Virus record (IMG/VR): IMGVR_UViG_3300007539_000203
Span: 1 to 24,695 of that record
Reading direction: 5' to 3' (one strand)
Source of the DNA: a virus
DNA: 24,695 nt
Below are positions 2,437 to 22,634 of the stretch, piece by piece. Position numbers and translations under genes: made by a program. Each line of letters opens with the position of its first letter. The first letter of the stretch is position 1. Below the pieces are notes generated by a model. The model ran no database searches. It saw only the letters and a program-made list of their open reading frames with translations, and was not told the origin of the DNA.

Positions 2437-2447
2437 GGAGAACTAGA

Positions 2448-2666: not shown

Positions 2667-2678
2667 AAAGGAATAGAG

Positions 2679-3259: not shown

Positions 3260-3371
3260 AACAGTTAGGCTTTGTGATGAATGTAAAACGCCCTTTAAGG
3301 AGGGGGCATTGGACTTTCTCAGTGATGAGTTTGTCTGTCCATATTGTGCAAACGGAAAGGACGAAGAATGA
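3201..3371 (+). CDS. Zinc-ribbon protein coupled to DNA polymerase, 56 aa
   Basis: I choose ATG 3201 because AAGGA lies seven bases upstream; an internal ATG at 3252 would give a 39-aa version with a weak site. The C-terminal part is a clear zinc ribbon: LCDECKTPF, about 20 residues later VCPYCANG, giving two Cys-x2-Cys knuckles. The stop codon overlaps the DNA polymerase start as ATGA, so the two products are probably made together. A polymerase accessory role is possible, but only the coupling supports it. Confidence 0.55.
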   Translation: MKGGDGLPNIDQLSFINMHRTVRLCDECKTPFKEGALDFLSDEFVCPYCANGKDEE

Positions 3372-5170: not shown

Positions 5171-5182
5171 AAAGGACACATT

Positions 5183-6069: not shown

Positions 6070-6078
6070 GAGAGGACT

Positions 6079-6753: not shown

Positions 6754-6943
6754 TAAAGTACCACCACAACAAGTTATCAATGGAAAGAAAGCAGAACCAG
6801 AGGTAACTGACTATGATGAATACTTAGTTGATTGGTTGACTACTAAAGAAGAAAGACGAAAGAATATTACTAAGTCTAGTAAGACACGGCAGAAGAGAAG
6901 GGATAATCGATATGCCAAAGAAGAGCGATTATACGGAAAGTAA
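6734..6943 (+). CDS. Small basic unknown protein, 69 aa
   Basis: ATG 6734 is preferred (GAGGA seven bases upstream) over a TTG at 6722. The product begins MRNPMYNKVPPQQVINGKKA, has a short acidic centre (VTDYDEYLVDWL) and then a very basic tail (TKEERRKNITKSSKTRQKRR). It is overlapped by the nuclease end on one side and by the primase-helicase start on the other. The tail suggests nucleic-acid binding. No family recognised. Confidence 0.6.
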   Translation: MRNPMYNKVPPQQVINGKKAEPEVTDYDEYLVDWLTTKEERRKNITKSSKTRQKRRDNRYAKEERLYGK

Positions 6944-8567
6944 AGAAATTGGTAAGACTAAATGCCCTGCTTGTCCCTCGTCAGATGGCTTTGCTATGTA
7001 CGATGATGGGCATGGGTATTGTTTTGTTTGTAATCATTATGAAAAGAATATAGAAGAGGAAGAGGACATGGCTGTTGCAGCACCTCAAATTACAAGTCTA
7101 GAATTATTTGAGTCTCAGTTAGGTGACTATCGTGGTTGTCAAGAACGAGGCATTACTAAAACTATTTCAGAGCATTATGGTGTTAGAGCTACATATGATA
7201 GCGAGCGTAACATCACTGCTTTTAACTATCCTTACTATAAAGACAACGAACTGGTTGCCTATAAAGTAAGAACATTACCTAAACAATTTAAAACTGTAGG
7301 AGACTTTAAAGATGTCTGGCCTTTTGGTTGTCAAAGCTTTGGAATGGGGGGCAAACGACTCGTCATCACTGAAGGTGAATTCGATGCGATGTCCGTTGCA
7401 CAAGCCTCGTTGGATCACTATAATAAAATCTATCCTGTCATTTCTGTTGCGTCAGCAAGCAACCTCAAGAGTCTGTTGCAAGCAAGAGAATGGATCAGAT
7501 CATTCGAAGAAGTCGTATTGTTCTTTGACAATGACTCAGCAGGAAAGAAAGCAGTTAAAGATGCCGCAAATATTATCGGCATAGATAAAGTAAAGGTAGT
7601 TAGTACTACTGCTAAAGACCCTTGCGAACTTTATACTGCTGCAGGTCATCATGGTGTAATGCGTGTTATCTGGGATGCACAGCCATTTAGTCCTGCTGGT
7701 ATTGTAGTAGGCCACGAGCCTGTATGGGAACAGTATCTTGCTAGGCGTTCTACTGAGTCTGTTGCTTATCCTGATTGTCTAGCAGGCATCAATGATAAGA
7801 CTAAGGGTATGCGCTTCGGTGAGATTACTCTGTTTACTAGTGGTACTGGTAGCGGTAAATCTACAGTCATTAAAGAAATTGTACTTGATTTATTAGATAA
7901 GACTGATAATAAAGTCGGCATGATTTCTCTTGAAGAATCTGTTGGTGATACAGCAGAAAAGTTTATTCAGATGAAGTTACAACGTAACCTACAAGAGTAT
8001 GATGTGTCTCTTGAAGAACAGGAGGAAGCAAGTCGTGCAGTATTCGGAACAGAACAGCTTGTATTACTCGATCATCAAGGCTCTGTTGGTGATGAGTCTC
8101 TTATTGATAAAATTGAATATATGGCTCTCATGGGGTGCAAGTACCTTATTCTTGACCATATTACAATTGCTGTATCAGAAGGAGCAGAGGGTTACACTGG
8201 TAACGAAGCCATTGATAAAGTCATGTCAGATCTTCTTAAGCTTACTAAGAAGCACAACATATGGCTTGGAGTCATCTCTCACTTGCGTAAAGTTCAAGGG
8301 GGCGGTTCGACCTTTGAGCAAGGTAAACTTCCTAGCATGGATGACATCAAAGGTAGTGGTTCAATCAAACAGATTTCATTTGATATCATTGGATTCGCTA
8401 GAGACATGGCTAACGAAAACGAAGAAATCAGAAACACAATTAACTTTATTGTGCTTAAATCTAGGTTTACAGGTAAGACTGGTCCCGCTGGACATGCCAA
8501 GTATAACCACGATACAACTCGATTAAAGTACCATGATGAACATGCTATTGACTTTGAGGTAATGTAA
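6912..8567 (+). CDS. Primase-helicase (T7 gp4-like)
   Basis: The 551-aa protein has three modules in T7 gp4 order. The zinc-binding domain is KCPAC (C18, C21) with CFVC (C37, C40). The TOPRIM primase core is VITEGEFDAM (E154) with LFFDNDSAG (D206, D208). A DnaB-type helicase follows: Walker A SGTGSGKST at residues 310-318, catalytic Glu in ISLEES, Walker B region YLILDHITIAV, then a SHLRKVQGGG segment. It unwinds DNA at the fork and makes RNA primers for the polymerase. AAGGG lies upstream of the ATG. An internal start at residue 53 may yield a helicase-only form. Confidence 0.95.
   Translation: MPKKSDYTESKEIGKTKCPACPSSDGFAMYDDGHGYCFVCNHYEKNIEEEEDMAVAAPQITSLELFESQLGDYRGCQERGITKTISEHYGVRATYDSERNITAFNYPYYKDNELVAYKVRTLPKQFKTVGDFKDVWPFGCQSFGMGGKRLVITEGEFDAMSVAQASLDHYNKIYPVISVASASNLKSLLQAREWIRSFEEVVLFFDNDSAGKKAVKDAANIIGIDKVKVVSTTAKDPCELYTAAGHHGVMRVIWDAQPFSPAGIVVGHEPVWEQYLARRSTESVAYPDCLAGINDKTKGMRFGEITLFTSGTGSGKSTVIKEIVLDLLDKTDNKVGMISLEESVGDTAEKFIQMKLQRNLQEYDVSLEEQEEASRAVFGTEQLVLLDHQGSVGDESLIDKIEYMALMGCKYLILDHITIAVSEGAEGYTGNEAIDKVMSDLLKLTKKHNIWLGVISHLRKVQGGGSTFEQGKLPSMDDIKGSGSIKQISFDIIGFARDMANENEEIRNTINFIVLKSRFTGKTGPAGHAKYNHDTTRLKYHDEHAIDFEVM
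7052..7070 (+). promoter_or_regulatory. Candidate internal ribosome binding site and start inside primase-helicase
   Basis: Purine-rich AGAAGAGGAAGAGGAC directly precedes an in-frame ATG at 7068, codon 53, just after the zinc-binding domain. Initiation here would give a 499-aa protein lacking C18/C21/C37/C40. T7 makes its short gp4B form from an internal start at codon 64. The site also encodes a run of Glu residues, so the purine bias may be only coding. Confidence 0.45.
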
Positions 8568-8737: not shown

Positions 8738-8853
8738 TGGCAAAGAAAGTAACTAATGATTCAATGTACTTCCAGTTAAAGGATAGGAAGCGTACTACCT
8801 TTACAGGAAAGAAATATAAAACACGTAAAAAATATCGAGGACAAGGTCGATAG
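8737..8853 (+). CDS. Very basic peptide, 38 aa
   Basis: The ATG at 8737 shares a base with the preceding stop. Fourteen of 38 residues are Lys or Arg, including FTGKKYKTRKKYRGQGR at the end. Such a peptide would bind nucleic acid or acidic proteins. The tight TAATG coupling on its 5' side and the well-spaced gene after it support it as real. No family recognised. Confidence 0.5.
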   Translation: MAKKVTNDSMYFQLKDRKRTTFTGKKYKTRKKYRGQGR

Positions 8854-8862
8854 GAGATTACA

Positions 8863-9300
8863 ATGGACTCAATAAAGCAAGCTCGTTATGACAGTATGTA
8901 TATGGATATTGCCGAACGAGTAAGTGAGATGTCATATGATATAGAAACTAAAGTTGGAGCTATTATTGTCAAAGATGGAAACATTATTTCGATGGGCTGG
9001 AACGGAACTCCTTCTGGCTTTGATAACGATTGTAAGCATCCTAGTACTGGGGCTACTCTATCTACTGTTATTCATGCTGAAGCTAATGCTATCTGCAAGC
9101 TGGCTCGTACTGGAGGCAACGGATCTGATGCCACACTGTACACTACGCTCTCGCCTTGTATGGAATGTACTAAACTTATCCTGCAATCTGGGATCAGTGA
9201 AGTTGTCATTGTTAAAGCAGATGAGCGATATATGGAAGGATATAAAATCCTCAAGGACAAGGAGATGATTAGACTATGCAAGTCCACTTCCAAGAAATAG
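8863..9300 (+). CDS. dCMP deaminase-type zinc deaminase
   Basis: The 145-aa protein is a cytidine/deoxycytidylate deaminase family member. KVGAIIVKDG and SMGWNGTPSGF form the nucleotide site, VIHAEANAI carries zinc ligand H71 and catalytic E73, and LSPCMECTKLI carries zinc ligands C99 and C102. Overall layout and length match dCMP deaminases, which convert dCMP to dUMP as substrate for thymidylate synthesis. No thymidylate synthase is in the window. AGGAGA lies about seven bases before the ATG. A related ComEB or general deaminase specificity cannot be excluded. Confidence 0.9.
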   Translation: MDSIKQARYDSMYMDIAERVSEMSYDIETKVGAIIVKDGNIISMGWNGTPSGFDNDCKHPSTGATLSTVIHAEANAICKLARTGGNGSDATLYTTLSPCMECTKLILQSGISEVVIVKADERYMEGYKILKDKEMIRLCKSTSKK

Positions 9301-9536
9301 AAGGTGACCCTGACCATGTTGCATGGGTTCAGTGTGAGCCTGAAGACCTCGATGAGGTAAGAACAATATTTCCTGTCGAAAAATATGAAATTTTAGTCGG
9401 AATTAAAACAAACTACGATCCGCTTACTTGTGATATAAATACACTACATAACCCCCCTGCCCCTACCTGGGGCGTAGATGTAAGAAAGAGGACTGATGGA
9501 AGATATACGACAATACCTACTAACAAAGATTCGTAG
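9276..9536 (+). CDS. Unknown protein upstream of RNA polymerase, 86 aa
   Basis: The ATG at 9276 lies inside the deaminase gene, with AAGGAG upstream at a long spacing of about 12 bases, and the stop lies 40 bases inside the RNA polymerase gene. The product begins MQVHFQEIEGDPDHVAWVQC, is acidic in the first half and rich in Pro and Thr at the end (LHNPPAPTWGVDVRKR). No motif recognised. Long overlaps at both ends and uncertain ribosome spacing keep confidence moderate. Confidence 0.5.
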   Translation: MQVHFQEIEGDPDHVAWVQCEPEDLDEVRTIFPVEKYEILVGIKTNYDPLTCDINTLHNPPAPTWGVDVRKRTDGRYTTIPTNKDS

Positions 9537-11613
9537 TGAGGATCTTGGCGTAAAACCTAGACGTAACCTTCAGCTTATGCGTATGATTGATACTGATGGT
9601 GTAGATATGCTTGACTTCTTAATTGAAGACATGATTATCTATGCTCGAAAGTATATTCAGCGTTGCTTTAAACGAAGTAAAGTTGAAGGCGAAACACCTA
9701 TTACTCAGGCTTCAATGGCAATTGGTAAATACATTGTCGAAGGCTGGGATAGTAGTAATGTAAACTTCAGAGATCATATTAGAGTTGGTGATCTCGTTAT
9801 CGAAGGCTTTGTTATGTGTAGCTACCTGACTATCAGTGTAGGGCATATGAAAAGCCGTAAGCCAGTTACTATTCATGCCACCTCTAAATGGGGTGAAATG
9901 GAAATTGTAGCTGGTAAAACTGTTTGTATCAGTGAAGATGCAATACCACCTATTACAAGTCTTATCCAAAATAACGGTAAAAGCGTTATCAAGACTTGGG
10001 ATAAGTCTAAGGAATACTTATTTCTTAAACACAAGGATGCACCCTTTGTCAAGGCAATTGATAAGCTACAATCAACTCGCTTTAAAGTAAATCAAGCAGT
10101 ACACCAAGCTATCCTAGATAACTGGGATATGTTTATCAAGACTGAGACATTCAAAGGTGAAGACAAGAAAGAGAACGATAAGCTATATCAGCGTCAAGCC
10201 TCAAAGAATAGAGAAGTAAAAGAGATAATGGCTACTGCAGGTAAGTGGCTACATAAAGAGTTTTATTTCTACATTGACGCAGATTATCGTGGTAGGCTTT
10301 ACTATAGCGAACCCTTCTTTAACTTTCAAGGGTCTGATATAGCACGAGGACAACTCTTGTTTGCCAAAGGTAAACTATTTGATGAACAAGCTAGCTTCTG
10401 GTTAGCTGTTCATACTGCTTGTTGTTATAATCAGTCTTATACCATTGATGAGATACCTGAATGGGTCACTGCTGATTATCGTTCTGTACTTGAAGAAGAA
10501 GGTCTTGATACTATTTCAGTAGACAAGATGACGCTTGAAGACAGGGCTATGTGGACTCAGCAGAACATCAATATTCTTATTGAAGCAGGTAGAACAGGTT
10601 TCTTATTTGAAGAAGCTGAAAAGAGTATTTCATTACTGGCTTGCTGTATTGAATGGTATAACTATTCAACAGCAGAAGGTGACTACTATACTCACTTACC
10701 TGTGCCTATTGACGGTGCTAACAATGGATGGCAACATCTTGGTGCTATGTCTAAAGATAATAAGACAGGTAGCTTAGTCGGTCTTGTACCTACTGAGATA
10801 CAGAATGACTTCTATGTTCAGATAGCTAAAAGGCTTACTGAGCGTATGCCTGAATGGTTCTCTGAGAGAGATATACCCATGAAGCATATTAGGAAGGGTA
10901 TTGCTAAGCGTGCTGCTATGACTAGAGCTTATAGCTGTGGTCAAAAGAAAATGGCTGAGTCAATGTACTCTGACTGTTATCAGTATGGTTATACCAAAGA
11001 CTATGACATTAGCGAGTACGACTGTATTGATCTCAGCGGTCAGATAATCAAAGCCATTGAAGAAGTCTGTCCAGGTCCATTGACAACAATGAAATATCTC
11101 CAGCGTCTTGCTGACCAAGAGATAACTAATTGGATGGGCTTGTATGGTACTGATAGAGGACATGGCATTGAATGGACAACCCCTTCAGGCTTTCCTGTTA
11201 TCTATGAGTGCTACCGTACTAGACCTGCGAAGGTAGACTGCTACGGGTTTAATACCCCTGATGGTGAGATACGCTTTAAGCATGTCATCAGAGAACAAAC
11301 AGATATCCCTGATAGGCGTGGCTTTATGTGCGGTATCAGCCCTAACTTTGTTCATAGCATGGATGCTAGTCACATGGCACTTGTAATTGCTAATTGGCAT
11401 GAAGACTTTGGTGCTGTGCATGATTCATTTAGTACTTATGCTACTGATGTAGAGCCGCTTATGGAAGTCACTCGCACCACCTTTGTTGATATGTACGACA
11501 AAGAAAACTTCTATGAGTCAATTCCATTTGGCAAAGGCTTTAATGGAACTCAACCAACTATAGGCAACCTCGATGTTAAACAGGTTGTTAACTCAAATTA
11601 CTTCTTCTGTTAG
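9496..11613 (+). CDS. T7-like single-subunit RNA polymerase
   Basis: The 705-aa protein has every motif of the T7 RNAP family: DADYRGRLYY (D263, R267), motif A VPIDGANNGWQH (D406), motif B KGIAKRAAMTRAYS (K467, K471, M475, Y479), SPNFVHSMDASH, motif C AVHDSFSTY (H642-D643), and an aromatic C-terminal foot NYFFC comparable to T7 FAFA. It is about 180 aa shorter than T7 RNAP, mostly at the N-terminus, so promoter-contacting parts are reduced. It would transcribe phage genes from its own promoters. AGAGGA lies just before the ATG. Unlike T7, where RNAP is gene 1 and early, here it is nearly last in the replication block. Confidence 0.96.
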   Translation: MEDIRQYLLTKIRSEDLGVKPRRNLQLMRMIDTDGVDMLDFLIEDMIIYARKYIQRCFKRSKVEGETPITQASMAIGKYIVEGWDSSNVNFRDHIRVGDLVIEGFVMCSYLTISVGHMKSRKPVTIHATSKWGEMEIVAGKTVCISEDAIPPITSLIQNNGKSVIKTWDKSKEYLFLKHKDAPFVKAIDKLQSTRFKVNQAVHQAILDNWDMFIKTETFKGEDKKENDKLYQRQASKNREVKEIMATAGKWLHKEFYFYIDADYRGRLYYSEPFFNFQGSDIARGQLLFAKGKLFDEQASFWLAVHTACCYNQSYTIDEIPEWVTADYRSVLEEEGLDTISVDKMTLEDRAMWTQQNINILIEAGRTGFLFEEAEKSISLLACCIEWYNYSTAEGDYYTHLPVPIDGANNGWQHLGAMSKDNKTGSLVGLVPTEIQNDFYVQIAKRLTERMPEWFSERDIPMKHIRKGIAKRAAMTRAYSCGQKKMAESMYSDCYQYGYTKDYDISEYDCIDLSGQIIKAIEEVCPGPLTTMKYLQRLADQEITNWMGLYGTDRGHGIEWTTPSGFPVIYECYRTRPAKVDCYGFNTPDGEIRFKHVIREQTDIPDRRGFMCGISPNFVHSMDASHMALVIANWHEDFGAVHDSFSTYATDVEPLMEVTRTTFVDMYDKENFYESIPFGKGFNGTQPTIGNLDVKQVVNSNYFFC

Positions 11614-11622
11614 GAGGTTACT

Positions 11623-11874
11623 ATGGCAGAAAATAAAAACTGGCTTGCCCAAAGAGGGCATGATATTAACGATAATGATTATAAAGCATTAGGTATTAGC
11701 GAAGATACCATTGCTAATGGCAATTTTAATCGTGAAATGTTAGACCTTGTTCATCAGCAAAACATGGCTGGCTACATGAAGCAAGGTATGTCTGAAAAAG
11801 CAGCAAGGCTTAAAGCAGACAAGCAAAGAAGTCAGGCAATTAAAGCAGCAAAGGCTAATGGTCTTAAAATGTAA
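11623..11874 (+). CDS. Small helical unknown protein, 83 aa
   Basis: AGGAGG lies about seven bases before the ATG, a strong site, and the gene follows RNA polymerase by nine bases. The product begins MAENKNWLAQRGHDINDNDY, is mostly helical, and ends basic (KAARLKADKQRSQAIKAAKA). It is the last gene before the convergent terminator. No family recognised; the position invites a guess of RNAP regulator, without evidence. Confidence 0.7.
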   Translation: MAENKNWLAQRGHDINDNDYKALGISEDTIANGNFNREMLDLVHQQNMAGYMKQGMSEKAARLKADKQRSQAIKAAKANGLKM

Positions 11875-11876
11875 AT

Positions 11877-11929
11877 AAAAAACCCCACAAGGTTTCCATA
11901 TAGGATTCCCTGTGGGGTATTTTTTTTTT
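11877..11929. terminator. Bidirectional intrinsic terminator between convergent gene blocks
   Basis: ACCCCACA at 11882-11889 pairs with TGTGGGGT at 11911-11918. A ten-T run follows on the + strand (11920-11929), and A6 at 11877-11882 gives T6 on the - strand. The inner region GGTTTCCATATAGGATTCC can pair further. It ends both the + replication block and the - virion block. Confidence 0.93.
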
Positions 11930-14900
11930 ATGAGAATTGATTGATAAACTCATTCATCATTTCTTCAGCAACTGCTTTGTTATTCCGTACTTTCTTTTCA
12001 AACTTCTCTAAGTCTTGACGTATTTGCAAGGCTTCAATTGAGTCTAAAAACATTCTAAGAAATACTTTTGGTGAAACAATATGATGTTGAGGTGGAAATC
12101 TAAGATTAAAGCTAGTATCATATTGCGCTATAGTAGCAACTTTATCATACGCATTTTTCTTTTTATCATCCATTTCTTTTTGAGCAGAACCTTCTGCTGC
12201 AGTACCAAACCTTTCATCACCAATAATAGTAAAACTATTTTCAATGGCTGTTCTAGGTTTAGTAATAAACTCACCGATCATACGGTACTCACCTTGCATT
12301 CCAATGTCAAAGCCTGTTCCGTTTTTAGTTTTACGCTCAACTTCTTTTTTAACTGATTTAATAAGATCATTAAACGCTTCAACTTCTTTACGAACCATAT
12401 TATACTTCTTATTAACAATTTTAAATTGCTTATTAGCTGTATCTCTAAGATCAGCAAAAGTAGCTGCATCTCCCATGAATGCATCATAAACTTGCATCAT
12501 TAGCTGTCCATTTCTGCGCTTACCTACTTCAGCTACTGTAGCCTGGGCAATTGTAGCGTCAATATTTTGAGTAGCATTAACAGCCATTTGATTTCGTAGT
12601 TTACTTCCTGTTCCTGGATTGCTTCTTGAGTTATCTCTTAGTCTACGAGCATCTGCTTTTGCTTGGGCTGAAGGAATATTACGTGCAAGTCCTACAGTCA
12701 TTGTACTTTGACGTAATGGTTCGCCTGCTCTTTGAACTCCAGGTTGTTTCCTAAAGTCTTCTGCAAGCTGAATAATTTCTGCACCAGTTTCTACTCGCTC
12801 CCATCCACCTGATTGAATCAGATAGCCGTTAGCTCCTTCTGTTTGGTTAATTTGATTAGCAAAATTAAAAGCATATCCTACACGAGACATAATTTTACCA
12901 TGCTCAAACGCACCACCAAGCCTATGTTTAAGACCAAAAGCTATTTGATCTTGTAAGAATTTAACTGCCTCATCTCTTTCAAAATTAGCAAACATAGTTC
13001 TATTAGTAACATAAAACTCTTCAGCAGTATCTTCGTGCAAGTTAGGGTCTTTACCATAGATACTAGTCATAATAGGAATCTTTAACAATTCTTTGCGCTT
13101 GCCTGCAGCCTTAATGTTTGCAACTAGCTCTTGCTCCTTCTGACCGTATCCTGCCATAACATTTTGTTCGATAGAGTCAAACACTTCATCTCGAATATCT
13201 TGCTCAAGGTCATCTGCGCTAGAGTAAATAACACCACCTCGACTAAGAATATTAATCAAACCCATTTGCATAGCTTGAATAACAGCACCATTAGAGTTAC
13301 CGTCAACTTCTGCTTTAACACGAGTAATAAACTCTTGATTAGGGCTTGTAGGATCTATGCGGTTATATCTTCCTAGCTCATATAAAGCATCTAATGCAAA
13401 ATAAAAACCATCTTTACCCATTTTATCTAGATGATTAAGGGTTGTAGTACTTAATGATTCTTCAAGAGAAGGGACAAGACCTTGCTGAATTGCAGTTTGA
13501 AGTGCAGAAGCAGGATCATCTGGTAAATCCATTTGTTTAGCAACACCACCTACACGATCCATGTAGTTCATTACATCTGCAGCCATGTTGTCAAACATTG
13601 CTCTTTGCGAATTAAATAAAGCAATTTGATCTGCAGGAAGTTTCTTGTCTGCCTTTTCAACAAGTGATCTTGCAAGAACTCCAAAGAAACCTTTTTCTAA
13701 AGTAGAGCCAGAGCCTTTTCTAAACTTAACAGGTTGCGCTCCATCAACAAGGAAACGAGCTACTTTGTCTGCTTGATAATTAAGCTCAGTATTACTAATC
13801 ATCATACGAGATGAATTATTAATAGCTGTATAACCATAGTAGAAAGAAGTACCAATACGATTAGCACCATCCGCTAATGTTTCTGCACGCAAATTATAAT
13901 GAATCTGTTGAATTCTTCTTGCTTGATTAAATGCCTCATCTCTAAGTTTCTTTTCTACTTCTTGACGAGTAGGCCGATATCCCTGTGGAAAAAACTTTCC
14001 AAGAGATAAAACACCGTTATCAAAATCAAAAAGAAAACGCTCATACAATTCATTAGTTTTATCTTCAAGATATTTAGGGTCTTGCTTAGTGTATTTAGCA
14101 AACAATCCTGTGTTATTCATAGTGGCACTAGCCATAACCCCTGCAAAAAGAGTTACTTTATGCGGAGAAATAGTGTGTGCTACTTTAGATAACGCAGATA
14201 TACCTTCTTTTACTTTTTTAGTAAGGCGATTAGGTACTACTTGTCTAGTAATTTCATTTTGAGTATAACCAGATTCACTAATTAAAATACCTTCTGCAGT
14301 TGGAACAAGAGAAACAGGACGCTCATGCCCTTTTAGGCCAAGCTCTTTAAGCAAAGCTCGCCTTAACCGAGGCACTTGATGCGCACCTGCATCGCTAACT
14401 ACATAAGTGTACTTAGGCTTTTTATTACCTGACGGATCAGGTACAGCAATAGTATTAATCCAATTAAACATTGGACTATCAGCAAACCCTTGAAGGATCA
14501 CTTGACCAAGAACATCTTTTTCATCTGAAGTTAATCGAGACTTATATCCTGGACCTTTAATTTCTCCTGTAAAAGAACTTGCATCAATGTCGCCTGAATG
14601 AAATAACATCTGTTCAATACGGTCAGCTACTGCACGACCAAAAACAGTCCGATCCATAGCATTATCATGTAACCTTTCAGATGCTACTTTATCAATTTCA
14701 GTAGACTGTAAGTTAAGACGATTACCTAGCTCCATTAATACAGCAAGGTAGGCAGTTGCTCCAAATGCTGATTTAATTTCTGAGTTAGGATCAGCATCAT
14801 TTTCAGCCATACCTAGTTTATCTGTTGACTTAACAATATACTGAAAGGTATCTGCATTTTGTCTAATGATATCTTGCGCTCGTGCTACATTACCAATTTC

Positions 14901-15701
14901 ATCTGGCTTCATAAAAGAATTAGGTATTTGAACCGCAAAAATATTTGATTTACCACCATCAAATCTAAATGCTTTACCTGCATTCTCTAAGTCTTTTTCA
15001 ATTTTGATAATATCAGCACCATCAGCAATACTAAGATCACGATAATGCGATTGCATAAGCTTATTATCAATATAGTTACCAAAGTTTTTTGCGCCTTCTT
15101 CATCTAGGAAAGCACCTGTTTTTTGAAAGTAGCCTTGCTGAAGCTCTTGTTGCCCTGCCTCAAGTGCTTCTTCTTCGGTCATTGTACCTAAGTACTGACC
15201 TCTTTTGTCTAGCTTTGCTAGTTGTTCTTGACGAAGTCTATTAGCAGTTTCTTGAGTAAGGCTAAAAGTTGTAGGGTCAGTCGGATCAAGAGCTAATGCC
15301 GCCTCTTCAGGCGACATGCTATCAAATCCCTCTACTGTCCTTTGCCTTGGACGGTCTGCTACTGTACCAAGAACTCTTTCTTCTCCAGGAACAGCAAGAC
15401 CTTTTATTGCAGGTTGATCTGATTCAGGTAAGTTAACTTGTTGACCTGCAAGCTCAGCTAGCTCAGCTTCTGGTTGTACTGCAAATTCATCCCCTGTCGG
15501 AGCCATTGGTACTCTGCGTTGCAGTTCTTCTGCTGGAAGAGAAATAGAGCTTCTTTCTGATAACTCATCACCAAGATTTATTGCTTTTTGTTTTCCTTCT
15601 TCAGAAAGCCCTGCTTGTTTTCTTTTTTCTGCTTGTATTTTTGCAAAAGTTTCTTGCCGCAAAGTAGAGGCTATATTTGTGGCTGATAGTTTCCCTGCCA
15701 T
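11928..15701 (-). CDS. Divergent single-subunit RNA polymerase in the virion operon (probable virion RNA polymerase)
   Basis: A 1257-aa protein whose position suggests an ejected internal virion protein. From residue ~600 it carries single-subunit RNAP motifs in order. YYGYTAINNSSRMMISN with R632 corresponds to the T7 DxxGR region, followed by NYQADKVARFL like NPQGNDxxxxLL. Motif A is KAEVDGNSNGAV (D800). Motif B is KELLKIPIMTSIYG, where K870, K874, M878 and Y882 keep the exact four-residue steps of T7 R627, K631, M635 and Y639. NATQNIDA leads to motif C, MQVYDAFMGD (D1073). R-to-A, A-to-B and B-to-C distances are 168, 74 and 199 residues. Residues 1-600 are unrecognised and may handle packaging, ejection or promoter binding. 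Its start follows the previous stop by one base, with GGGAG six bases upstream. N4 vRNAP is the closest known concept. Packaging is inference. Confidence 0.85.
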   Translation of the reverse strand: MAGKLSATNIASTLRQETFAKIQAEKRKQAGLSEEGKQKAINLGDELSERSSISLPAEELQRRVPMAPTGDEFAVQPEAELAELAGQQVNLPESDQPAIKGLAVPGEERVLGTVADRPRQRTVEGFDSMSPEEAALALDPTDPTTFSLTQETANRLRQEQLAKLDKRGQYLGTMTEEEALEAGQQELQQGYFQKTGAFLDEEGAKNFGNYIDNKLMQSHYRDLSIADGADIIKIEKDLENAGKAFRFDGGKSNIFAVQIPNSFMKPDEIGNVARAQDIIRQNADTFQYIVKSTDKLGMAENDADPNSEIKSAFGATAYLAVLMELGNRLNLQSTEIDKVASERLHDNAMDRTVFGRAVADRIEQMLFHSGDIDASSFTGEIKGPGYKSRLTSDEKDVLGQVILQGFADSPMFNWINTIAVPDPSGNKKPKYTYVVSDAGAHQVPRLRRALLKELGLKGHERPVSLVPTAEGILISESGYTQNEITRQVVPNRLTKKVKEGISALSKVAHTISPHKVTLFAGVMASATMNNTGLFAKYTKQDPKYLEDKTNELYERFLFDFDNGVLSLGKFFPQGYRPTRQEVEKKLRDEAFNQARRIQQIHYNLRAETLADGANRIGTSFYYGYTAINNSSRMMISNTELNYQADKVARFLVDGAQPVKFRKGSGSTLEKGFFGVLARSLVEKADKKLPADQIALFNSQRAMFDNMAADVMNYMDRVGGVAKQMDLPDDPASALQTAIQQGLVPSLEESLSTTTLNHLDKMGKDGFYFALDALYELGRYNRIDPTSPNQEFITRVKAEVDGNSNGAVIQAMQMGLINILSRGGVIYSSADDLEQDIRDEVFDSIEQNVMAGYGQKEQELVANIKAAGKRKELLKIPIMTSIYGKDPNLHEDTAEEFYVTNRTMFANFERDEAVKFLQDQIAFGLKHRLGGAFEHGKIMSRVGYAFNFANQINQTEGANGYLIQSGGWERVETGAEIIQLAEDFRKQPGVQRAGEPLRQSTMTVGLARNIPSAQAKADARRLRDNSRSNPGTGSKLRNQMAVNATQNIDATIAQATVAEVGKRRNGQLMMQVYDAFMGDAATFADLRDTANKQFKIVNKKYNMVRKEVEAFNDLIKSVKKEVERKTKNGTGFDIGMQGEYRMIGEFITKPRTAIENSFTIIGDERFGTAAEGSAQKEMDDKKKNAYDKVATIAQYDTSFNLRFPPQHHIVSPKVFLRMFLDSIEALQIRQDLEKFEKKVRNNKAVAEEMMNEFINQFS

Positions 15702-15702
15702 A

Positions 15703-18700
15703 TTAATCTCCCATACTATGTAATTTATCGTTAATCCAGTTTCTTCCTACTGGTGTTGTACCTACTCCAGGGATAAGCTTCAGAGTATGGTTAACAGCTC
15801 TTTCAGTTTCACCTTGGCCTAATGCTTGGATTGCTTTAACACCTGTCCCTATGTTTCTAAGTGTTGGTGAACCGCCTACTGTTTCACCAAAGAGACGCTC
15901 AACAAGACCTTGATCTCTGCTTTCGTACATCGGCAAACCCATCTGAAGAACACGTTCACCTGTACCTAATAGACCTGCTGATTGTATTGCCCTTTGAAGC
16001 AATTGATAGTCATTAAGATAGGGTGTAGAACCACCAAACTTAATAAAATCTTTAAGCCATTGAGATGCACCTGCAAATGCCATTAAAGTTACTACCATTG
16101 CAAACGTGTTATACTGCATACGAGGACTACCTTTAGCAACATAATCTTTCCATAAACGAGGAATAATATTAGCTGTAAAGGTAGACAAAAAGCCATTAAA
16201 CTGTACTATAAGCTGAAAACGAGGATCTTGAAAGAACAAAGGTCTGTTGTATGCTTGGGGGTTTTGAACACGATCGTTAACAAAATACCAAATAGCAGTG
16301 TTTAATTGATCATCAATAAACCGTGAATCTGCATTAATATCACCATCGTAGTCGTCATCCATGTATGCATCAAACATTTTTTGATTGCCATTATATTTAT
16401 TAAATACACCGACAACACCTTCAACGTCCATACCAAGATTTCTTAATTGTAAATATACATCAAGTTTTTCTTGGCTTAACGAGTTAATATCAATATTACC
16501 GTTTTCATCGAGGTTAGCGGCAAGCATACGAATTCTGTCACTAATAAAGCTAGTAGCTAATGCTGCAGATATACAACGTTGAAAATTAGTAATGCCAGCA
16601 ATACCTACCCATTTATAAAAGTTCTTTTGCCACCACGCAGTAGTGATATCTGTTTCACCCATACCAAGACGAGTTGCAACTCCTGCTGAGTCTCTTAGAT
16701 GACCTATTTTAGTCAAACGTTTTTGTGCTTTGTTATCAATATGCGCACGAGGAACATTAAACAATGAGCCATGTATTTCCATAGCACTAACATTTTGCAT
16801 AATGTTTTTAAGCTCACCCGTAGCAGCAACTACAGCATTACGAACATCTCGCATATCTTTAGCTTGCCACACTGCCATCACAAATTCAGGGACTGAACTA
16901 ATCATAGCTAATGGAAGACCAACCATTGCAGAATAAAAGGCCGCTTGACGCTGCATAAACGCAAGCTTTCTGTTTTTAATAGGATTATAATTCCCTGTAC
17001 CAGCATCAATAATATTTTTAGTAAAGTAAGCAACATGGTTTAATGTTTCATCACTAACCCCATCTTTCCTAGCTTCGTTAAGAAGATAATCAATATGTTT
17101 ACCGCCTGCACCAAAGTAAGTTGTATAAGCATAATACTTAGCTGTTTCACCTACTGAGTTTAATGCATTCTGAATTATATCAGTATTAGCAAACTCTTCA
17201 AACCCAGGAACAGAAGCTAAGTCAAGACCTTCTTTAGTACGTCCAGGAACATACTCAACTCCTTCTACTATAGAAAAGTCTGTAGCATTTTCATTATTGC
17301 TTACTCTATTATATAAGTCATCTAATGCTACTTTGTTTTCAGGCTTACCATAATCAGTATTTTCTTGCATCCACTTGTACCAAGCTTCACGATTGTTTCT
17401 TACTTTTTTCCAATCAAAAACACCACGATTAAGCCAACCTGCTCTATCAAAATCAAGACCTTTACCTCGTTCTAAACGGCTTGCATCTTGATTAGTATAT
17501 GCCATATTACGATATTCAAACTCTTTTTCGTTTAGCATATCAAGTTCTTTAATAGTTTCAACAATGGCATCCATATAAGTTACTAAATCGTTGTCTAACT
17601 GAGTACCTTTTGGAATAGTATAAGATACAATTTCACCTGTACTTTGATCTCTAGTAAATTGAAGTTTAGGATATGCTCGCCTAATCATATCCGATATACG
17701 ATTAGAATTAGTAAGGTTATCTTTAAATCCAAATCGTTTGAATACACCAATAGGATCAAAAATAGCAGATAACTCACCTTTAATTGCTGACTCTTCAGCT
17801 TGAACATCTCTACCATTATAAAGCTTACCAAATGGTTGACCAACCAACGCATAAAGTTTTCTTAATGCAGAAGAAAGTCTGAGATCTTCAGGACGAAAAG
17901 CAGAAGTTGCAGCTGTTCGAGTTAACTCAGGATACTTAGTTGGGTCTTTAAGCTTATCCATAAAAGTGCCTCTAGCAGTTTTACCTGCTCCAGCTCTTTG
18001 TTTAGTAATGCTTTGAGAGGAAGTCATCTCATACCCTTCAGTATTTACACTTGTTTCTACGACAATATCTGCAACAGAAGTTCGTTGATCATTAAAGTCA
18101 ATCATTATTTTATCATAAGGATTTACTTTACTAATATCGCCTAGCATATAGCCTTTCTGCATAGCATAGCGATCACCAGCTTCAACAGTAGCACCAGCTA
18201 CCCCTAATCCACCACCAATAGTGCCTCCTGCAATACCAGCTTGTAGCAGTAAATTAGTAAATTCATTAGGATTAAAGTTTTCTTTAAATCGACCTTCTGA
18301 CATAGCTGCAGACGCAGAATAACCAAGCCCTTCCTGTGCCATTTCAGTTATGCCTTCTGCAAGAAAACCTCTTCCTGAAGCTTTAAGAAGCTCACGCATA
18401 ATTTGGCTATTATTAATATTATCTGCTGCAAAATTGTTAAGCCCACTAATTAGAGCTTTTGTTTCTGCTTTTGTAGCCTCTAATACCAGCTTTCTTGCTT
18501 GTGTTTCTGTTACGCCTTTTGTAGCAACAATACCTTTTATTAATTCCTCTCTACCTGCTTTTGTAAGCAAGTCAGAAGGCTTCATAAAAGTACTCATGGC
18601 AAGACGATCAAGAACAGCCATTGCTGTACCTGCCATGATCGAACCTACTGCTTCAGCACGACCTTTTTTCCCTTCAATGTCATTCCAAACTTGACCTGCA

Positions 18701-19749
18701 TAAGATGCACCAGTAGAGCTATAAGCAATAACTGCAGATGCACCACCAGTTACAGGTGCAAGTAAACCACCAGCAACAAGAGTAGTCATATAAGGCGCAG
18801 ACATAGCAGTGTTATTAATCATAAAGTCGAGACCATCCCAGATGCTATCAACATCCCGATAATCAAGGTTACGAATAATAGGAGCAGAAAGCAAATCAGC
18901 TTTAGCATCATCTACTTTATTGCGACCCCATGTTTCTATTTGTTCGCTACCTAGAGTAACGCCAATCAACTCTGCAAAACCTGCAAGGCCAGCTCCCATG
19001 CCACGCCAACCTTGATTCCAAGCTTCAGTAGTTTGATTATAAGCAACACCTTCTTTAGTTCTGTCTTGCGCTCTAAAGTCAATCCCTGAAAAAGGAATAC
19101 TTCGCATGTCATAGTTAGCGTCTAGTGCATAACTCATTGCAGTACGATAATCTTTTTCGTTTGCTAAATTAAGACCTTGTTGCAATGCAATTGTTTGAAC
19201 TACACCATCAAGATATTCTTGTTCATTAATTGCATTATCTTTAAATTGAAGTGGTTGATTTTGTATTTCAGAAAGCTCATCAGCAATAATATGATCAAAC
19301 TCACCTTTAGCCCCTATTTCTTTAAGGAACTTACCACGTTCAGCCGCTTGCAATCCTTCTTTATCTGTAAAAAGATTAATATCAACTGCACCAGATTTAT
19401 AAAGAGCATTAGTAAGGTCATTACCGTCTTTATCAAGGAGCTTTACTCGCTCACGACCAAATGAATCAGTATAACCTGAAAATTCAATATTATTAAATCC
19501 GCCTTCTGCTACAATTTTTTCAACTGCACGCTGGGTTTCTTCACCACCGAGTTGTCCTGCTTTAAATCGAGGTAGATCTTCATCATCTTTAAATACTTTT
19601 TGTGTTTCAGGAGCGTTATAACCCTGAATACGATAAGACTTATCACCATCAGTAAACGTATCAGCGTCTATCCAACGATAAGACTTACCATCTGCACCTT
19701 TAAAAGTGCTTTCTACGGCTTCGTTATCACCGCCTAATAGTCCAGCCAT
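15703..19749 (-). CDS. Giant ejection-type protein with N-terminal staphylococcal-nuclease domain, 1348 aa
   Basis: Start ATG 19749 is chosen because AGGAGG lies about seven bases upstream; a longer frame reaching 19788 would run into a terminator. Residues ~15-150 match the SNase/thermonuclease fold: IDADTF (D30), YRIQGYNAPET (R40, N45, E48) and DSFGRERVKL (R99). SNase Arg35, Glu43 and Arg87 equivalents are present; the calcium-ligand Asp40 is Asn45. Hydrophobic helices appear near 317-345, 369-385, 504-523, 939-963 and 1215-1231, suggesting membrane insertion as for T7 ejection proteins (gp16 is 1318 aa). It lies between the transglycosylase and RNAP genes. It may form the ejection channel and carry a nuclease; the nuclease target is unknown. 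Confidence 0.8.
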   Translation of the reverse strand: MAGLLGGDNEAVESTFKGADGKSYRWIDADTFTDGDKSYRIQGYNAPETQKVFKDDEDLPRFKAGQLGGEETQRAVEKIVAEGGFNNIEFSGYTDSFGRERVKLLDKDGNDLTNALYKSGAVDINLFTDKEGLQAAERGKFLKEIGAKGEFDHIIADELSEIQNQPLQFKDNAINEQEYLDGVVQTIALQQGLNLANEKDYRTAMSYALDANYDMRSIPFSGIDFRAQDRTKEGVAYNQTTEAWNQGWRGMGAGLAGFAELIGVTLGSEQIETWGRNKVDDAKADLLSAPIIRNLDYRDVDSIWDGLDFMINNTAMSAPYMTTLVAGGLLAPVTGGASAVIAYSSTGASYAGQVWNDIEGKKGRAEAVGSIMAGTAMAVLDRLAMSTFMKPSDLLTKAGREELIKGIVATKGVTETQARKLVLEATKAETKALISGLNNFAADNINNSQIMRELLKASGRGFLAEGITEMAQEGLGYSASAAMSEGRFKENFNPNEFTNLLLQAGIAGGTIGGGLGVAGATVEAGDRYAMQKGYMLGDISKVNPYDKIMIDFNDQRTSVADIVVETSVNTEGYEMTSSQSITKQRAGAGKTARGTFMDKLKDPTKYPELTRTAATSAFRPEDLRLSSALRKLYALVGQPFGKLYNGRDVQAEESAIKGELSAIFDPIGVFKRFGFKDNLTNSNRISDMIRRAYPKLQFTRDQSTGEIVSYTIPKGTQLDNDLVTYMDAIVETIKELDMLNEKEFEYRNMAYTNQDASRLERGKGLDFDRAGWLNRGVFDWKKVRNNREAWYKWMQENTDYGKPENKVALDDLYNRVSNNENATDFSIVEGVEYVPGRTKEGLDLASVPGFEEFANTDIIQNALNSVGETAKYYAYTTYFGAGGKHIDYLLNEARKDGVSDETLNHVAYFTKNIIDAGTGNYNPIKNRKLAFMQRQAAFYSAMVGLPLAMISSVPEFVMAVWQAKDMRDVRNAVVAATGELKNIMQNVSAMEIHGSLFNVPRAHIDNKAQKRLTKIGHLRDSAGVATRLGMGETDITTAWWQKNFYKWVGIAGITNFQRCISAALATSFISDRIRMLAANLDENGNIDINSLSQEKLDVYLQLRNLGMDVEGVVGVFNKYNGNQKMFDAYMDDDYDGDINADSRFIDDQLNTAIWYFVNDRVQNPQAYNRPLFFQDPRFQLIVQFNGFLSTFTANIIPRLWKDYVAKGSPRMQYNTFAMVVTLMAFAGASQWLKDFIKFGGSTPYLNDYQLLQRAIQSAGLLGTGERVLQMGLPMYESRDQGLVERLFGETVGGSPTLRNIGTGVKAIQALGQGETERAVNHTLKLIPGVGTTPVGRNWINDKLHSMGD

Positions 19750-19763
19750 ATTGAACCTCCTGT

Positions 19764-19819
19764 TAAATAAAAAATCCCTAGAGATCACTCCCCTATAAGG
19801 GTGTTTTAATCTCTAGGGA
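19764..19819 (-). terminator. Intrinsic terminator or processing hairpin inside the virion operon
   Basis: Reading the - strand, TCCCTAGAGAT (19819-19809) pairs perfectly with ATCTCTAGGGA (19785-19775), followed at once by six T. A smaller inner hairpin (CACCC/GGGGAGTG) fills the loop. It starts eight bases after the stop of the transglycosylase gene and ends just before the AGGAGG of the nuclease-domain gene, leaving no room for a promoter. Partial termination or mRNA processing is likely. Confidence 0.85.
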
Positions 19820-19826
19820 ATATTAG

Positions 19827-22634
19827 TTATAGCTTAAAGTGATCAGATAATTTTTGAATTTCATCAAGGGAAGTATTTGCTAACCAAAGAGAAAAAGCAG
19901 TTTCATCTTTTCCTTCAGCACGATTAGTCCAATCTTCTCTTGGTACGATCTTTTTAATACCAATACTTTCAGCTAAAGCATCTGCAGCAACTTTATCTAC
20001 AGGTACTCTGTTAAAGACTTCTTCAACAATCTTCCAATTTTCTTGATAAGCTACGTCATAGCCATCTTCATATGGATTCATATTAGTGCTTTGACTAATC
20101 TTTTTATCTAGTTTAGCCATTGATTTAGTACTAATACCATTAAGGAAAGCACTATTAATCCCCGTTAATGGAATTACCATTTCAGATTGTACGTATGCTG
20201 CAATATCTGTAGGCACAGGTGTACCTTCTCGTTTTGCTTTTGCAACATCTGCCATAAACTTATCTACTACTTCTGCAAATTGAATTCTGGTACGCTCTGC
20301 TTCGTTAATACCGACACCATGTTTGCGTACATAATCATTAAACTCGGCATTAAGTTGAGTAGCTAGCTTAACAGGTAATGGATCTATTTGAAATTCATCA
20401 GTGCTAAAATTCTTTCTAGATCTTTCTAGCATATCTGAAAAATAAGAACGATTAGCAGCAGCTCCCATAGTCTTTTCATCCCAGGGTTGAATATATTTAC
20501 CTAGTACTGAAACAGGAACATAACCATTAGGATAACCTAATTGTTCGGCTTCATTTAATTTAACATATTCAATGCCATCATCATCTTTATAAGTATTAAC
20601 TCTACCTTTACCAATAAAGTTTACACTTCCAGAAACTTCTTTAATAACTGTCCCTTTAGTTGACTTAGGTACAAGATCATTTGGATCTAAAGTCTCCATA
20701 AACTTCTGAGCAGATGCTGCAGTGTAGTTATCGAGATTACTCTTAGCCAAATCAAATCTACGTTCTTCTAGTTTAGCTTCTGCTGCTTTTTTATCTTTAG
20801 CTGCTTGGTCTACTCTAGTTACATATTGTTTCATTGAATAGTTAAGAGAGCTACCATGATCGTAACCCAATGCACGAGAACCAACATAGTTAATAACCAT
20901 ACGTGCTAATTCAGGTCCACTAAACATATCTTTAAATGCTTCAGCAAACCAACCTTTAGCAGTATTTAGTTGTTCATCAAACTTAGATTTCTCTTCAGAA
21001 TTATCATCAAGACTAGCAAGATAATTATTGATAGAAGCATCGCCTTCAGGAGTTATCTCATTAACAGGACCAAGCTGTTTAATAACACCTTCTGCTGCTT
21101 TCTTTTGTGACTCTAAATCTACCGTATCTATCTCATATTCTGGAATAGCCTCTGGTTTATCAAACTTACCTGTTTCAGTATTATAGGTTTGTGCCTTTGC
21201 AGTTGCTTCTGCTGCTTCTGTTACTTTAGCACTTACTTCTGAAGCATGTTGTTGTTGTATTTGCTGTGCTTCTTTTAAGCTTTGAGTTGCTTCTTGATGT
21301 GCAGCAACTAGCTCTGGAGATACAGGAATACCCTTACTTTGGTTTTCATTAATCCTGTTTGCTAGCGTATCAACCTTTGCTTGACGGTCAGTAACTCTAT
21401 TTTCATTGAGATTTGCTATGACTTTATCTTGGTCAGGTAATAAGTCCAATACATTAGGGTTAGGGACTCCAGGAGCATCTACAGGTACTGGTAAGCCAAT
21501 AAACTCACCAGGATATTTAAGCGCACGTTCAGCTTGTTCGTCCTTAATAATAGTAGACTCTGTTCCAAATAGTTTATTCCCTACTGGTTCTCCAGGAGCG
21601 TCTTCAGGTACAGGTACTCCGAATGACTCTAGTGGATACATAAGGAATCTTTTCATTTGTGGAGAAAGAAAACCTTCTTCATCAGGCTTTGGAACTGATG
21701 CTGCTTGCATTTTAGGAACAGATGCTTCTGCCGCTGAAATAGGGTTTAATGCAGATAGTATTTTACCAGCATAAGATTGACCTCTTTCACCAAGTGTTTC
21801 TGTACCTTCTTTTGCTTTACGAACATTACCAGCCCCTGAATGATACGCTGTCAAGACCTCTTCTTGAGTAAAGTCTGGATTTTCTCTAGCAATTGCTGTA
21901 AGATAATCTTTAGCAAATTGACGAGACTTATCAGGATCTCTAATGTCTTCGATAGCAAGTGGAGTAACACCCATTCCAGGTTTTGCGGCAGTAGAAGGCA
22001 TAATTTGATAAGCGCCCATAGCACCAGCTTCAGATGTTGCATCAACGTCACCTCCTGATTCAACCATTTTAAGACTATCCAATAAATCATCTGTCAACCA
22101 TGAAGGAACGTTTGTACCTTCTTGGGCATAGATGGGTCCACCTTTTGAGTTATACAAAGAACTAAAGTCAAACGTATCTCTGTCTTGTTTAGTTGGTTTG
22201 CTACTTTCTAACTTACCAAGATATCTACGGCCACCACCTGTTCCAACACGCTTAGTGAATTGACCAATGCTACCATCGGGCATTCTTCGATACTCAATTC
22301 CTGGAGGTGCTTGTGGCATAGTTATACTGTCTAAAGCATCTTGGAAAAACCCAGTAATACCGCCTTCACCTTTATATTCAGGAATAGTACCACCTTGTGC
22401 CTGTTGTATGGCTCGTCCTTCATTGTTTATTTCTTCAAGTAATGGTTCATACTTTCGAGTAGCTTCTGCATTGATAACAAATTCTCCTGGAGTTAACCAA
22501 GCAGGTACTGTGTCTGGACCTTTAGGTTCTCCTGGATGATCGTATTCAGGTGTCTGCATAGGAGGCACATCATAGAATTCTACGGACATTTCATTACCGT
22601 AGCGATCTTTCCGCATAAAACTTTTTAAATGCAT
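19827..22634 (-). CDS. Virion protein with lytic transglycosylase domain, 935 aa
   Basis: Residues ~178-297 form an SLT-type lytic transglycosylase: SLKMVESGGD (catalytic E192), EAGAMGAYQIMPSTA and VLTAYHSGAGNVRKA. It would cut peptidoglycan locally during DNA entry, the role of T7 gp16's N-terminal domain. Residues 43-73 have the phage-typical segment VPAWLTPGEFVINAEATRKY followed by EPLLEEINNEG. Residues ~326-407 are two imperfect copies of a Pro-rich unit, and ~405-490 look coiled-coil. The C-terminal ~350 residues are unrecognised. The ribosome site AGGAGA lies in the last codons of the preceding gene, one base separating stop from start. A terminator follows the stop codon. Confidence 0.86.
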   Translation of the reverse strand: MHLKSFMRKDRYGNEMSVEFYDVPPMQTPEYDHPGEPKGPDTVPAWLTPGEFVINAEATRKYEPLLEEINNEGRAIQQAQGGTIPEYKGEGGITGFFQDALDSITMPQAPPGIEYRRMPDGSIGQFTKRVGTGGGRRYLGKLESSKPTKQDRDTFDFSSLYNSKGGPIYAQEGTNVPSWLTDDLLDSLKMVESGGDVDATSEAGAMGAYQIMPSTAAKPGMGVTPLAIEDIRDPDKSRQFAKDYLTAIARENPDFTQEEVLTAYHSGAGNVRKAKEGTETLGERGQSYAGKILSALNPISAAEASVPKMQAASVPKPDEEGFLSPQMKRFLMYPLESFGVPVPEDAPGEPVGNKLFGTESTIIKDEQAERALKYPGEFIGLPVPVDAPGVPNPNVLDLLPDQDKVIANLNENRVTDRQAKVDTLANRINENQSKGIPVSPELVAAHQEATQSLKEAQQIQQQHASEVSAKVTEAAEATAKAQTYNTETGKFDKPEAIPEYEIDTVDLESQKKAAEGVIKQLGPVNEITPEGDASINNYLASLDDNSEEKSKFDEQLNTAKGWFAEAFKDMFSGPELARMVINYVGSRALGYDHGSSLNYSMKQYVTRVDQAAKDKKAAEAKLEERRFDLAKSNLDNYTAASAQKFMETLDPNDLVPKSTKGTVIKEVSGSVNFIGKGRVNTYKDDDGIEYVKLNEAEQLGYPNGYVPVSVLGKYIQPWDEKTMGAAANRSYFSDMLERSRKNFSTDEFQIDPLPVKLATQLNAEFNDYVRKHGVGINEAERTRIQFAEVVDKFMADVAKAKREGTPVPTDIAAYVQSEMVIPLTGINSAFLNGISTKSMAKLDKKISQSTNMNPYEDGYDVAYQENWKIVEEVFNRVPVDKVAADALAESIGIKKIVPREDWTNRAEGKDETAFSLWLANTSLDEIQKLSDHFKL
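21414..21659 (-). repeat. Two-copy tandem repeat within the transglycosylase protein
   Basis: Residues about 326-366 and 367-407 of the 935-aa protein align as two ~41-residue copies. Core 1 is YPLESFGVPVPEDAPGEP and core 2 is YPGEFIGLPVPVDAPGVP, with Q-x-x-R-x-L-x before each. DNA identity is lower than protein similarity, so the duplication is old. It probably forms a Pro-rich linker or binding site. Confidence 0.7.

Follow-up and report, generated by a model that had tools for sequence, protein, structure and literature searches.

A compact polymerase predicted to resemble the N4 virion RNA polymerase lies opposite a T7-type RNA polymerase in a CRP-7-type marine podovirus

The stretch of DNA considered here, referred to as the window, is the entire 24,695-base virus record IMGVR_UViG_3300007539_000203 from IMG/VR. 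It carries two convergent gene blocks, each with a predicted single-subunit RNA polymerase (ssRNAP) at or near its end (Table 1). Genes on the + strand span approximately 0.66–11.87 kb and genes on the − strand run from 11.93 kb to the right end, with the sign of the GC skew flipping at the convergence point near 11.9 kb. The + block encodes a DUF3310 protein, a putative ssDNA-binding protein, a family A DNA polymerase, a 5′-3′ exonuclease, a GIY-YIG nuclease, a Toprim/DnaB primase-helicase, a dCMP/cytidine deaminase-type protein and, as its second-last gene, a T7-type RNA polymerase of 705 aa (RNAP1); the replication genes are T7-style. Across the convergence point lies an open reading frame (ORF) of 1257 aa. 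The − block further encodes a virion protein of 1348 aa, another of 935 aa bearing a lytic transglycosylase (SLT) domain, an acetyltransferase-like protein and two smaller proteins. An earlier description made from the letters of this DNA alone (hereafter the sequence-only reading) had given the same arrangement of the 705-aa and 1257-aa ORFs around a terminator, and its coordinates are confirmed. The strong inverted repeat between the blocks has T-runs in both directions, and its two strands give folding energies of −22.9 and −26.2 kcal/mol; it is not in the list of a consensus terminator scan that allowed loops of 3–8 only. Six right-hand ORFs of the window gave no match to terminase, portal or capsid families in Pfam and PHROGs, and the nearest long relatives measure approximately 58 kb. 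Hence, the window is presumably a fragment of a larger genome, whose early region and portal gene lie outside it.

Among GenBank phages, RNAP1 best matches gp30 of Roseobacter phage CRP-7, at 34.7% identity across the full length; CRP-7 is a cultured phage of 58,106 bp (MK613349) with the same two-block layout as the window. In a profile comparison with hhalign, the RNAP1 group of these phages matches the T7 family with an E value of 4.3e-80. RNAP1 carries Lys at the slot of T7 Arg627, with an Arg one residue earlier. The sequence-only reading had regarded the late placement of the RNAP1 gene as special. Its position near the end of its block does differ from that in T7, but the Paku and Valrath phages likewise carry their T7-type RNAP gene at approximately 16–19 kb of approximately 43 kb, and the placement is ordinary. 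Close relatives of the protein were not found in the bacterial genomes searched, and 205 bases of the gene matched nothing when plasmids were searched.

The 1257-aa protein by itself matched no RNA polymerase in Pfam, PHROGs or the PDB sequences and nothing among GenBank phages (tblastn); its best PHROG match is an unknown family (0.0015). Its relatives were gathered mainly via the neighboring RNAP1 gene, which led to 37 IMG/VR loci with a T7-type RNAP. A long reverse ORF directly follows RNAP1 in all 26 loci that reach past the convergence point, the other 11 ending earlier. Nine further loci were collected with gp33 of CRP-7, which occupies the same place as the second polymerase of the window and is annotated as hypothetical. 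The resulting 28-row alignment omits the redundant or truncated loci L005, L011, L017–L019, L040, L041 and L047–L049, and includes L012 and L022, both cut at the contig end (loci or genomes from the same record are L004/L005, L019/G001, L021/G002 and L031/G003). Identity to the window protein falls to 13% within this alignment, and a blastp comparison with CRP-7 gp33 is not significant; gp33 was placed in the family by its motifs and by a fold search with the 78% identical protein of locus L044. Searches among 50,697 phage records returned only gp33 itself for gp33 and no match for the L035 protein. The L025 protein matched 10 records, all from Vibrio phages (best E 5e-4), annotated variously as virion RNA polymerase or as coil-containing or lysozyme-domain protein. 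When 23 family members were scanned with E values up to 1, five matched Pfam RNA_pol (best 0.0013), five the RNA polymerase family phrog_414 (best 4.7e-8) and one, L025, phrog_2206 ‘virion RNA polymerase’ (6.7e-8). For scale, the Pfam model gives 0.0075 on the virion RNA polymerase (vRNAP) gene of N4 itself and 5e-4 on the second polymerase of G004. A PDB profile search with 23 members found no RNAP.

The best-kept residues of the family are those of ssRNAPs, namely R632, K646, R649, D800, the K/R pair of motif B, Y882, G883, D1073 and N1090. Both catalytic Asp residues are present in 28/28 members and the motif B Tyr in 27, with Phe in the remaining one. Three features are shared with N4-like vRNAPs: an Asn at position +17 from the motif C Asp (28/28 in the family, 11/11 N4-like vRNAPs, 0/13 T7-type RNAPs), the complete N-x-Q-x-x-K-x-x-R block (16/28, 10/11 and 0/13) and K-x-P in motif B (20/28, 10/11 and 1/13). 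The CRP-7 clade has neither of the latter two, and TxxGR reads NNSSR in the window protein. At the Lys631 slot, where the presumed general acid sits, CRP-7 gp33 again differs from the window protein by having Arg; members with Arg there are L010, L020, L021, L022, L035, L002, L042–L046 and L050.

An AlphaFold model of window residues 60–1257 reached a mean predicted local distance difference test score (pLDDT) of 71.4 and a predicted template modeling score (pTM) of 0.71, with most of the core at 80–95. The 50 PDB matches listed by Foldseek for this model are all ssRNAPs, mitochondrial and T7. With VIA-align, the Z score was 21.2 for T7 RNAP (532 residues aligned) and reached 20.5 for mitochondrial RNAPs; N4 vRNAP scored 14.7–17.1 and, with 740–769 residues, gave the longest alignments among the 50 matches listed. 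The match to the N4 RNAP domain extends from model residue ~132 to the end of the model. The model of the CRP-7-like L044 protein is weaker (pLDDT 58.1, pTM 0.55), and all 50 matches listed in its fold search are again ssRNAPs, N4 vRNAP included. The fold searches settle that the 1257-aa protein has an ssRNAP fold, and its catalytic residues look intact. The proposal of the sequence-only reading that this ORF encodes an RNA polymerase is thus borne out by the catalytic motifs of the family, the fold searches and the RNA_pol and PHROG matches of relatives.

At the level of profiles, the whole family matches N4 vRNAP with an hhalign E value of 1.7e-18 versus 1.2e-9 for T7-type RNAPs. The same order is seen for the sub-clade of the window alone (3.7e-11 versus 8.9e-5) and for that of L024 alone (2.8e-14 versus 5.9e-7), N4 vRNAP and T7-type RNAPs matching each other at 1e-9. 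Reversed alignments served as control and gave a lowest E value of 0.02 in eight comparisons. The CRP-7 clade alone is linked to the L024 sub-clade (1.3e-8) and not significantly to that of the window (0.2). By its profile, the second polymerase is closer to N4 vRNAP than to T7 RNAP; motifs, profiles and fold together show it to be a compact protein homologous to the N4 vRNAP RNAP domain.

The lineages of the two polymerases were compared in an unrooted ssRNAP tree of 53 rows, built from 98 columns in four ungapped motif blocks, in which N4 RNAP1+RNAP2 entered as one composite row. Three clans were obtained: T7-type RNAPs with N4 RNAP1+RNAP2 (ultrafast bootstrap, UFboot, 99), N4-like vRNAPs (99) and the new family (86). 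The RNAP1 group of these phages (support 100) nests inside the T7-type clan, and the second family lies outside it. The Lys at the Arg627 slot, which the sequence-only reading had noticed in both window polymerases and which the alignment reproduces, occurs in 6/6 RNAP1 proteins of the group and 25/28 second polymerases, versus Arg in all 11 N4-like vRNAPs and in the seven other T7-type RNAPs examined. It is best read as convergent.

Between the window and its relatives, the DNA polymerase, exonuclease, primase-helicase, deaminase and RNAP1 are 68–95% identical, and the virion proteins including the second polymerase are 20–57% identical or undetected; the second polymerase itself shows 20–38% or is undetected, near relative L004 excepted. 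These ranges set aside L004 as well as the distant L041 and CRP-7, and many cells of the underlying table are empty, with loci truncated. Values for the 83-aa protein, whose gene lies at the border, fall in between, with 51–93% identity in the 8 of 18 compared loci giving a match, or 51–69% in the seven besides L004. The second polymerase diverges like the virion proteins and is therefore read, from these comparisons, as traveling with the virion module and not with the replication module. In addition, purifying selection is indicated by a ratio of nonsynonymous to synonymous substitutions (dN/dS) of ~0.08 between the window polymerase and that of L004. As a separate observation, conservation falls sharply at the convergent terminator, as if modules were exchanged or evolving separately.

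Longer relatives place the gene in its genomic context. G001 (57,850 bp) has a 128-base end overlap with 126 identical positions and is probably complete. Its − block runs from terminase, portal, scaffold and capsid on down to the second polymerase, which is the order of N4, and the second polymerase closes the leftward virion block and converges on the + block, as N4 vRNAP does. The portals of G001 and CRP-7 belong to phrog_1216, as does N4 gp59, and the CRP-7 portal matches gp59 by blastp (4e-8). In contrast, terminase and capsid fall into phrog_2 and phrog_1328 in G001 and CRP-7 versus phrog_38 and phrog_1357 in N4. In a survey of N4-like phages, no two trees were reported to be more alike than those of portal and vRNAP (PMC10654107), in line with the two forming a shared module. 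The paper on CRP-7 reports ORF30 as RNAP and terms the RCA phages non-N4-like, and no vRNAP is recognized in the available part of its text (PMC6918029). The ribonucleotide reductase of CRP-7 (L002:35552-38170) is annotated in two pieces, gp44 and gp46; between them lie a small ORF and a gap that looks structured, and by eye this arrangement is reminiscent of a group I intron carrying a homing endonuclease.

Putative promoters were found for RNAP1. A T7-like motif, ACACCCTTATAGGGGA, occurs once in the window (20 shuffles averaged 0.0) and lies at the same place in six relatives (L004, L013, L015, L027, L031 and L032). Window-type phages carry the motif ACNCCCTTATAGGGGA, close to the T7 promoter core; G001 has three copies, before an early gene, the DNA polymerase and the terminase end of the late block, and the motif is missing from four of 12 further loci scanned (L021, L025, L028 and L041). 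In CRP-7, AGTCCCYTATTAAAAGG occurs five times when one mismatch is allowed (50 shuffles gave a mean of 0.0), two on the − strand and three on the + strand, one of these directly before the RNAP gene, where it is kept in 9/9 CRP-7-like loci. These motifs were first spotted by eye in intergenic listings and then counted, so the shuffle expectations are post hoc; a first repeat search for promoters had returned repeats of the tail-fiber region. The motifs are best read as candidate RNAP1 promoters, and RNAP1 therefore probably serves middle and late genes. The window motif sits in the loop of a terminator-like hairpin, three versions of which fold as DNA with z values of −2.65 (window), −4.13 and −1.71. 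This hairpin is kept in relatives with changed stems and could stop the upstream transcript and start the next.

Consensus scans of window positions 1–20000 remained at chance level for sigma70 promoters (54 versus 58.7 expected) and terminators (14 versus 11.9), as did a strict search for sigma70 promoters in the window, G001, G002, G003 and CRP-7 (1, 2, 0, 2 and 2 versus 1.2, 1.0, 2.1, 1.5 and 1.0). A sigma70-like promoter (TTGCMA or TTGCGA, 17 nt, TATAAT with extended TGT) was recognized 33–35 nt before the RNAP1 gene in seven relatives, L024, L026, L027, L031, L038 and L039 (six of the 28 loci listed) and L030 by pattern; positions are L024:3103, L026:5137 and L031:2410. The window has none before RNAP1, an 86-aa gene overlapping that place.

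A second kind of element precedes the early + genes of relatives. Short hairpins with a 6-bp stem and a 4-nt loop repeat there, with 14 matches to the pattern in 8 of 10 records versus five for a reversed control pattern. They are part of a longer covarying element with 12 copies, in which 95.6% of the cells are paired versus 39–54% when the pairing is slid and 13 of 19 pairs are changed on both sides; an alternative hairpin overlapping it is also conserved (97.2%). The element sits 27–47 nt before early gene starts. A covariance model run over 578,562 bases gave 18 sense matches with E < 0.001, all in early regions, of which 12 are the rows that built the model; the other matches at that level are the complements of these. 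The element was not found in CRP-7, the early region of G006 (L084) gave a single match (0.94), and one match (E 0.66) came from 11 further records, the majority of which probably stop short of the early region. Rfam held no match to it in seven sources. N4 promoters are described as simpler hairpins with 3-base loops (PMC4496689). The early leader element may act as a promoter for the vRNAP, as a site of processing or as an RNA switch.

From these data, the window is part of a CRP-7-type marine podovirus with two ssRNAPs of different lineages, the second of which is likely to be packaged, injected and early-acting; with about the same confidence, its mode of action is expected to resemble that of N4 vRNAP. 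Packaging and injection are suggested by its position and its co-divergence with virion proteins. In this scenario, the compact vRNAP-type polymerase would be packaged with the neighboring ejection-type proteins, enter the cell with the DNA and transcribe the early + strand genes. The T7-type RNAP made from the + block would then read the T7-like promoters before the replication and late genes, and the operons it reads would include the one that carries the packaged polymerase of the next generation.

Several points weigh against this interpretation. The packaging and the early role are predictions, and any vRNAP promoters of these phages are putative. The CRP-7 clade alone does not reach significance against N4 vRNAP (hhalign E 0.0053), N4 vRNAP is absent among the 50 Foldseek matches listed for the window model, and T7 and mitochondrial RNAPs outrank it by Z. 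An unrooted tree of three clans cannot make the second family the sister of N4 vRNAP. N4 vRNAP has N-terminal and C-terminal parts of ~1,000 and ~1,400 residues that are missing here, and the Lys631 slot holds Arg in 12/28 members (Lys in the window). Finally, the sigma70-like promoter in seven relatives argues against complete host independence there, where host RNAP may start the cascade.

The sigma70-like promoter would make an injected polymerase unnecessary and thereby favors the strongest alternative, in which the 1257-aa protein is an active but late-made and unpackaged polymerase for late genes, and host RNAP or the T7-type RNAP starts infection. That the gene belongs to the late block and follows a T7-like promoter motif would fit as well. 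Yet the gene adjoins virion structural and SLT proteins at the terminal position of N4 vRNAP, its product diverges along with virion proteins, and its profile is nearer to N4 vRNAP than to T7-type RNAPs; this alternative is therefore considered unlikely. Still less probable is a former polymerase that no longer transcribes and has been retained for a structural or ejection role. The very fast sequence divergence, the Arg in the Lys631 slot and the NNSSR of the window could be taken as signs of such decay, but the catalytic Asp and the motif B Tyr are kept while nearly everything else varies, and the low dN/dS likewise speaks for function. A duplication within the phage lineage, as the sequence-only reading had suggested for the two polymerases, can be dismissed with near certainty, since the shared Lys and an E value of 1.2e-7 between the whole second family and the T7-type RNAPs of the group, as expected of distant ssRNAPs, are set against the separate clans of the tree and against a match of only 0.069 between the window sub-clade and the RNAP1 group, which itself is so close to the T7 family.

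With regard to known systems, the second polymerase shares with N4 vRNAP gp50 of the Schitoviridae the ssRNAP fold and motifs, the Asn after motif C and, in many rows, N-x-Q-x-x-K-x-x-R and K-x-P. N4 vRNAP has ~3,500 aa versus 1257 aa here, and because its giant domain structure is not found, the protein should not be filed as N4 vRNAP proper, nor the phage in the Schitoviridae. The N4-family portal is shared by G001 and CRP-7, whereas their genomes of ~58 kb compare with 70 kb for N4 and their terminase large subunit and major capsid are not of the N4 type. N4 RNAP1+RNAP2 likewise form a second, non-virion ssRNAP on the T7-type side, but they are split and serve middle genes; the window has a single chain, whose presumed promoters also precede late genes. 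Late genes of N4 are read by host RNAP. The N4 logic invoked by the sequence-only reading thus holds for the profile, for the N4-like end-of-block position and for its combination with T7-style replication genes; it does not extend to the late genes with their T7-like motifs or, given the seven relatives, to full independence from the host. A single-chain T7-type RNAP and T7-style replication genes are also typical of the Autographiviridae, with which RNAP1 groups. Autographiviridae genes are generally all on one strand, in contrast to the two convergent blocks of the window and its relatives.

Two details concern the neighboring 1348-aa virion protein. It was listed as 1361 aa from an in-frame GTG, and the ATG at 19749 is the likelier start. 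By eye, its N-terminus (19400–19749) looks like a staphylococcal-nuclease fold, for which Pfam gave no match.

Table 1. Features of the window and, in the last row, of relatives, with their positions and the evidence for each assignment.
Feature	Position	Strand	Evidence or remark
Family A DNA polymerase	3371..5170	+	Pfam DNA_pol_A 1.2e-16
T7-style primase-helicase	6912..8567	+	Toprim and DnaB_C
T7-type single-chain RNA polymerase RNAP1, 705 aa	9496..11613	+	Pfam RNA_pol 1.2e-55; phrog_414 9e-104
83-aa gene, last of + block	11623..11874	+	No Pfam match at E 0.01
Putative bidirectional terminator between convergent blocks	11880..11930	both	Inverted repeat, T-runs both ways, folding
Predicted compact N4-vRNAP-type ssRNAP, 1257 aa	11928..15701	−	28-sequence alignment, hhalign, AlphaFold model, PDB/BFVD fold searches
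Motif C, catalytic Asp1073 (QVYDAF); Asn1090 17 residues on, N4-vRNAP-like	12417..12503	−	Alignment
Motif B: K870 (Arg627 slot), K874 (Lys631 slot), Y882, G883	13032..13103	−	Alignment
Motif A, catalytic Asp800 (EVDGNSNG)	13260..13328	−	Asp in 28/28
TxxGR-type block and N-x-Q-x-x-K-x-x-R block	13755..13850	−	R632, K646, R649 invariant in 28/28
1348-aa virion protein	15703..19749	−	phrog_6958 virion structural protein 1.4e-20; upstream of vRNAP-type gene, same block
Terminator-like inverted repeat TCCCTAGAGAT...ATCTCTAGGGA and T-run, promoter motif in loop	19769..19819	−	DNA folding
T7-like promoter motif ACACCCTTATAGGGGA	19789..19804	−	Reads into the 1348-aa and vRNAP-type genes
935-aa virion protein with SLT domain	19827..22634	−	Pfam SLT 1.5e-15
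Early leader element copies (relatives)	L071:616-689, L076:9690-9763, L079:1508-1581 and others		Covarying hairpin, two 2x2 internal loops

A more specific and tentative proposal, somewhat less likely to be right than wrong, is a cascade in which an injected compact vRNAP acts on structured (hairpin) early promoters, followed by the T7-type RNAP for middle and late genes including the vRNAP operon. The literature on vRNAPs outside the Schitoviridae was searched as far as it is open access. A 2025 preprint on N4 describes the large vRNAP as unique to the N4 family (PMC12633501). An iterated search of IMG/VR with hidden Markov models yielded 3,786 vRNAP-associated proteins that were later filtered by N4 hallmark genes (PMC10654107), and relatives of the second-polymerase family may already be within this set. 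If the proposal is true, N4-type virion transcription would be no invention of the Schitoviridae and would instead reflect an older, exchangeable portal-plus-vRNAP module, present here in minimal form. With a homologue about one third the size of N4 vRNAP and a cultured isolate, CRP-7, experiments could address which regions of the giant protein are required for packaging, ejection and the use of hairpin promoters, and where virion polymerases originated. Moreover, the second polymerase may offer a small, new enzyme for biochemistry.

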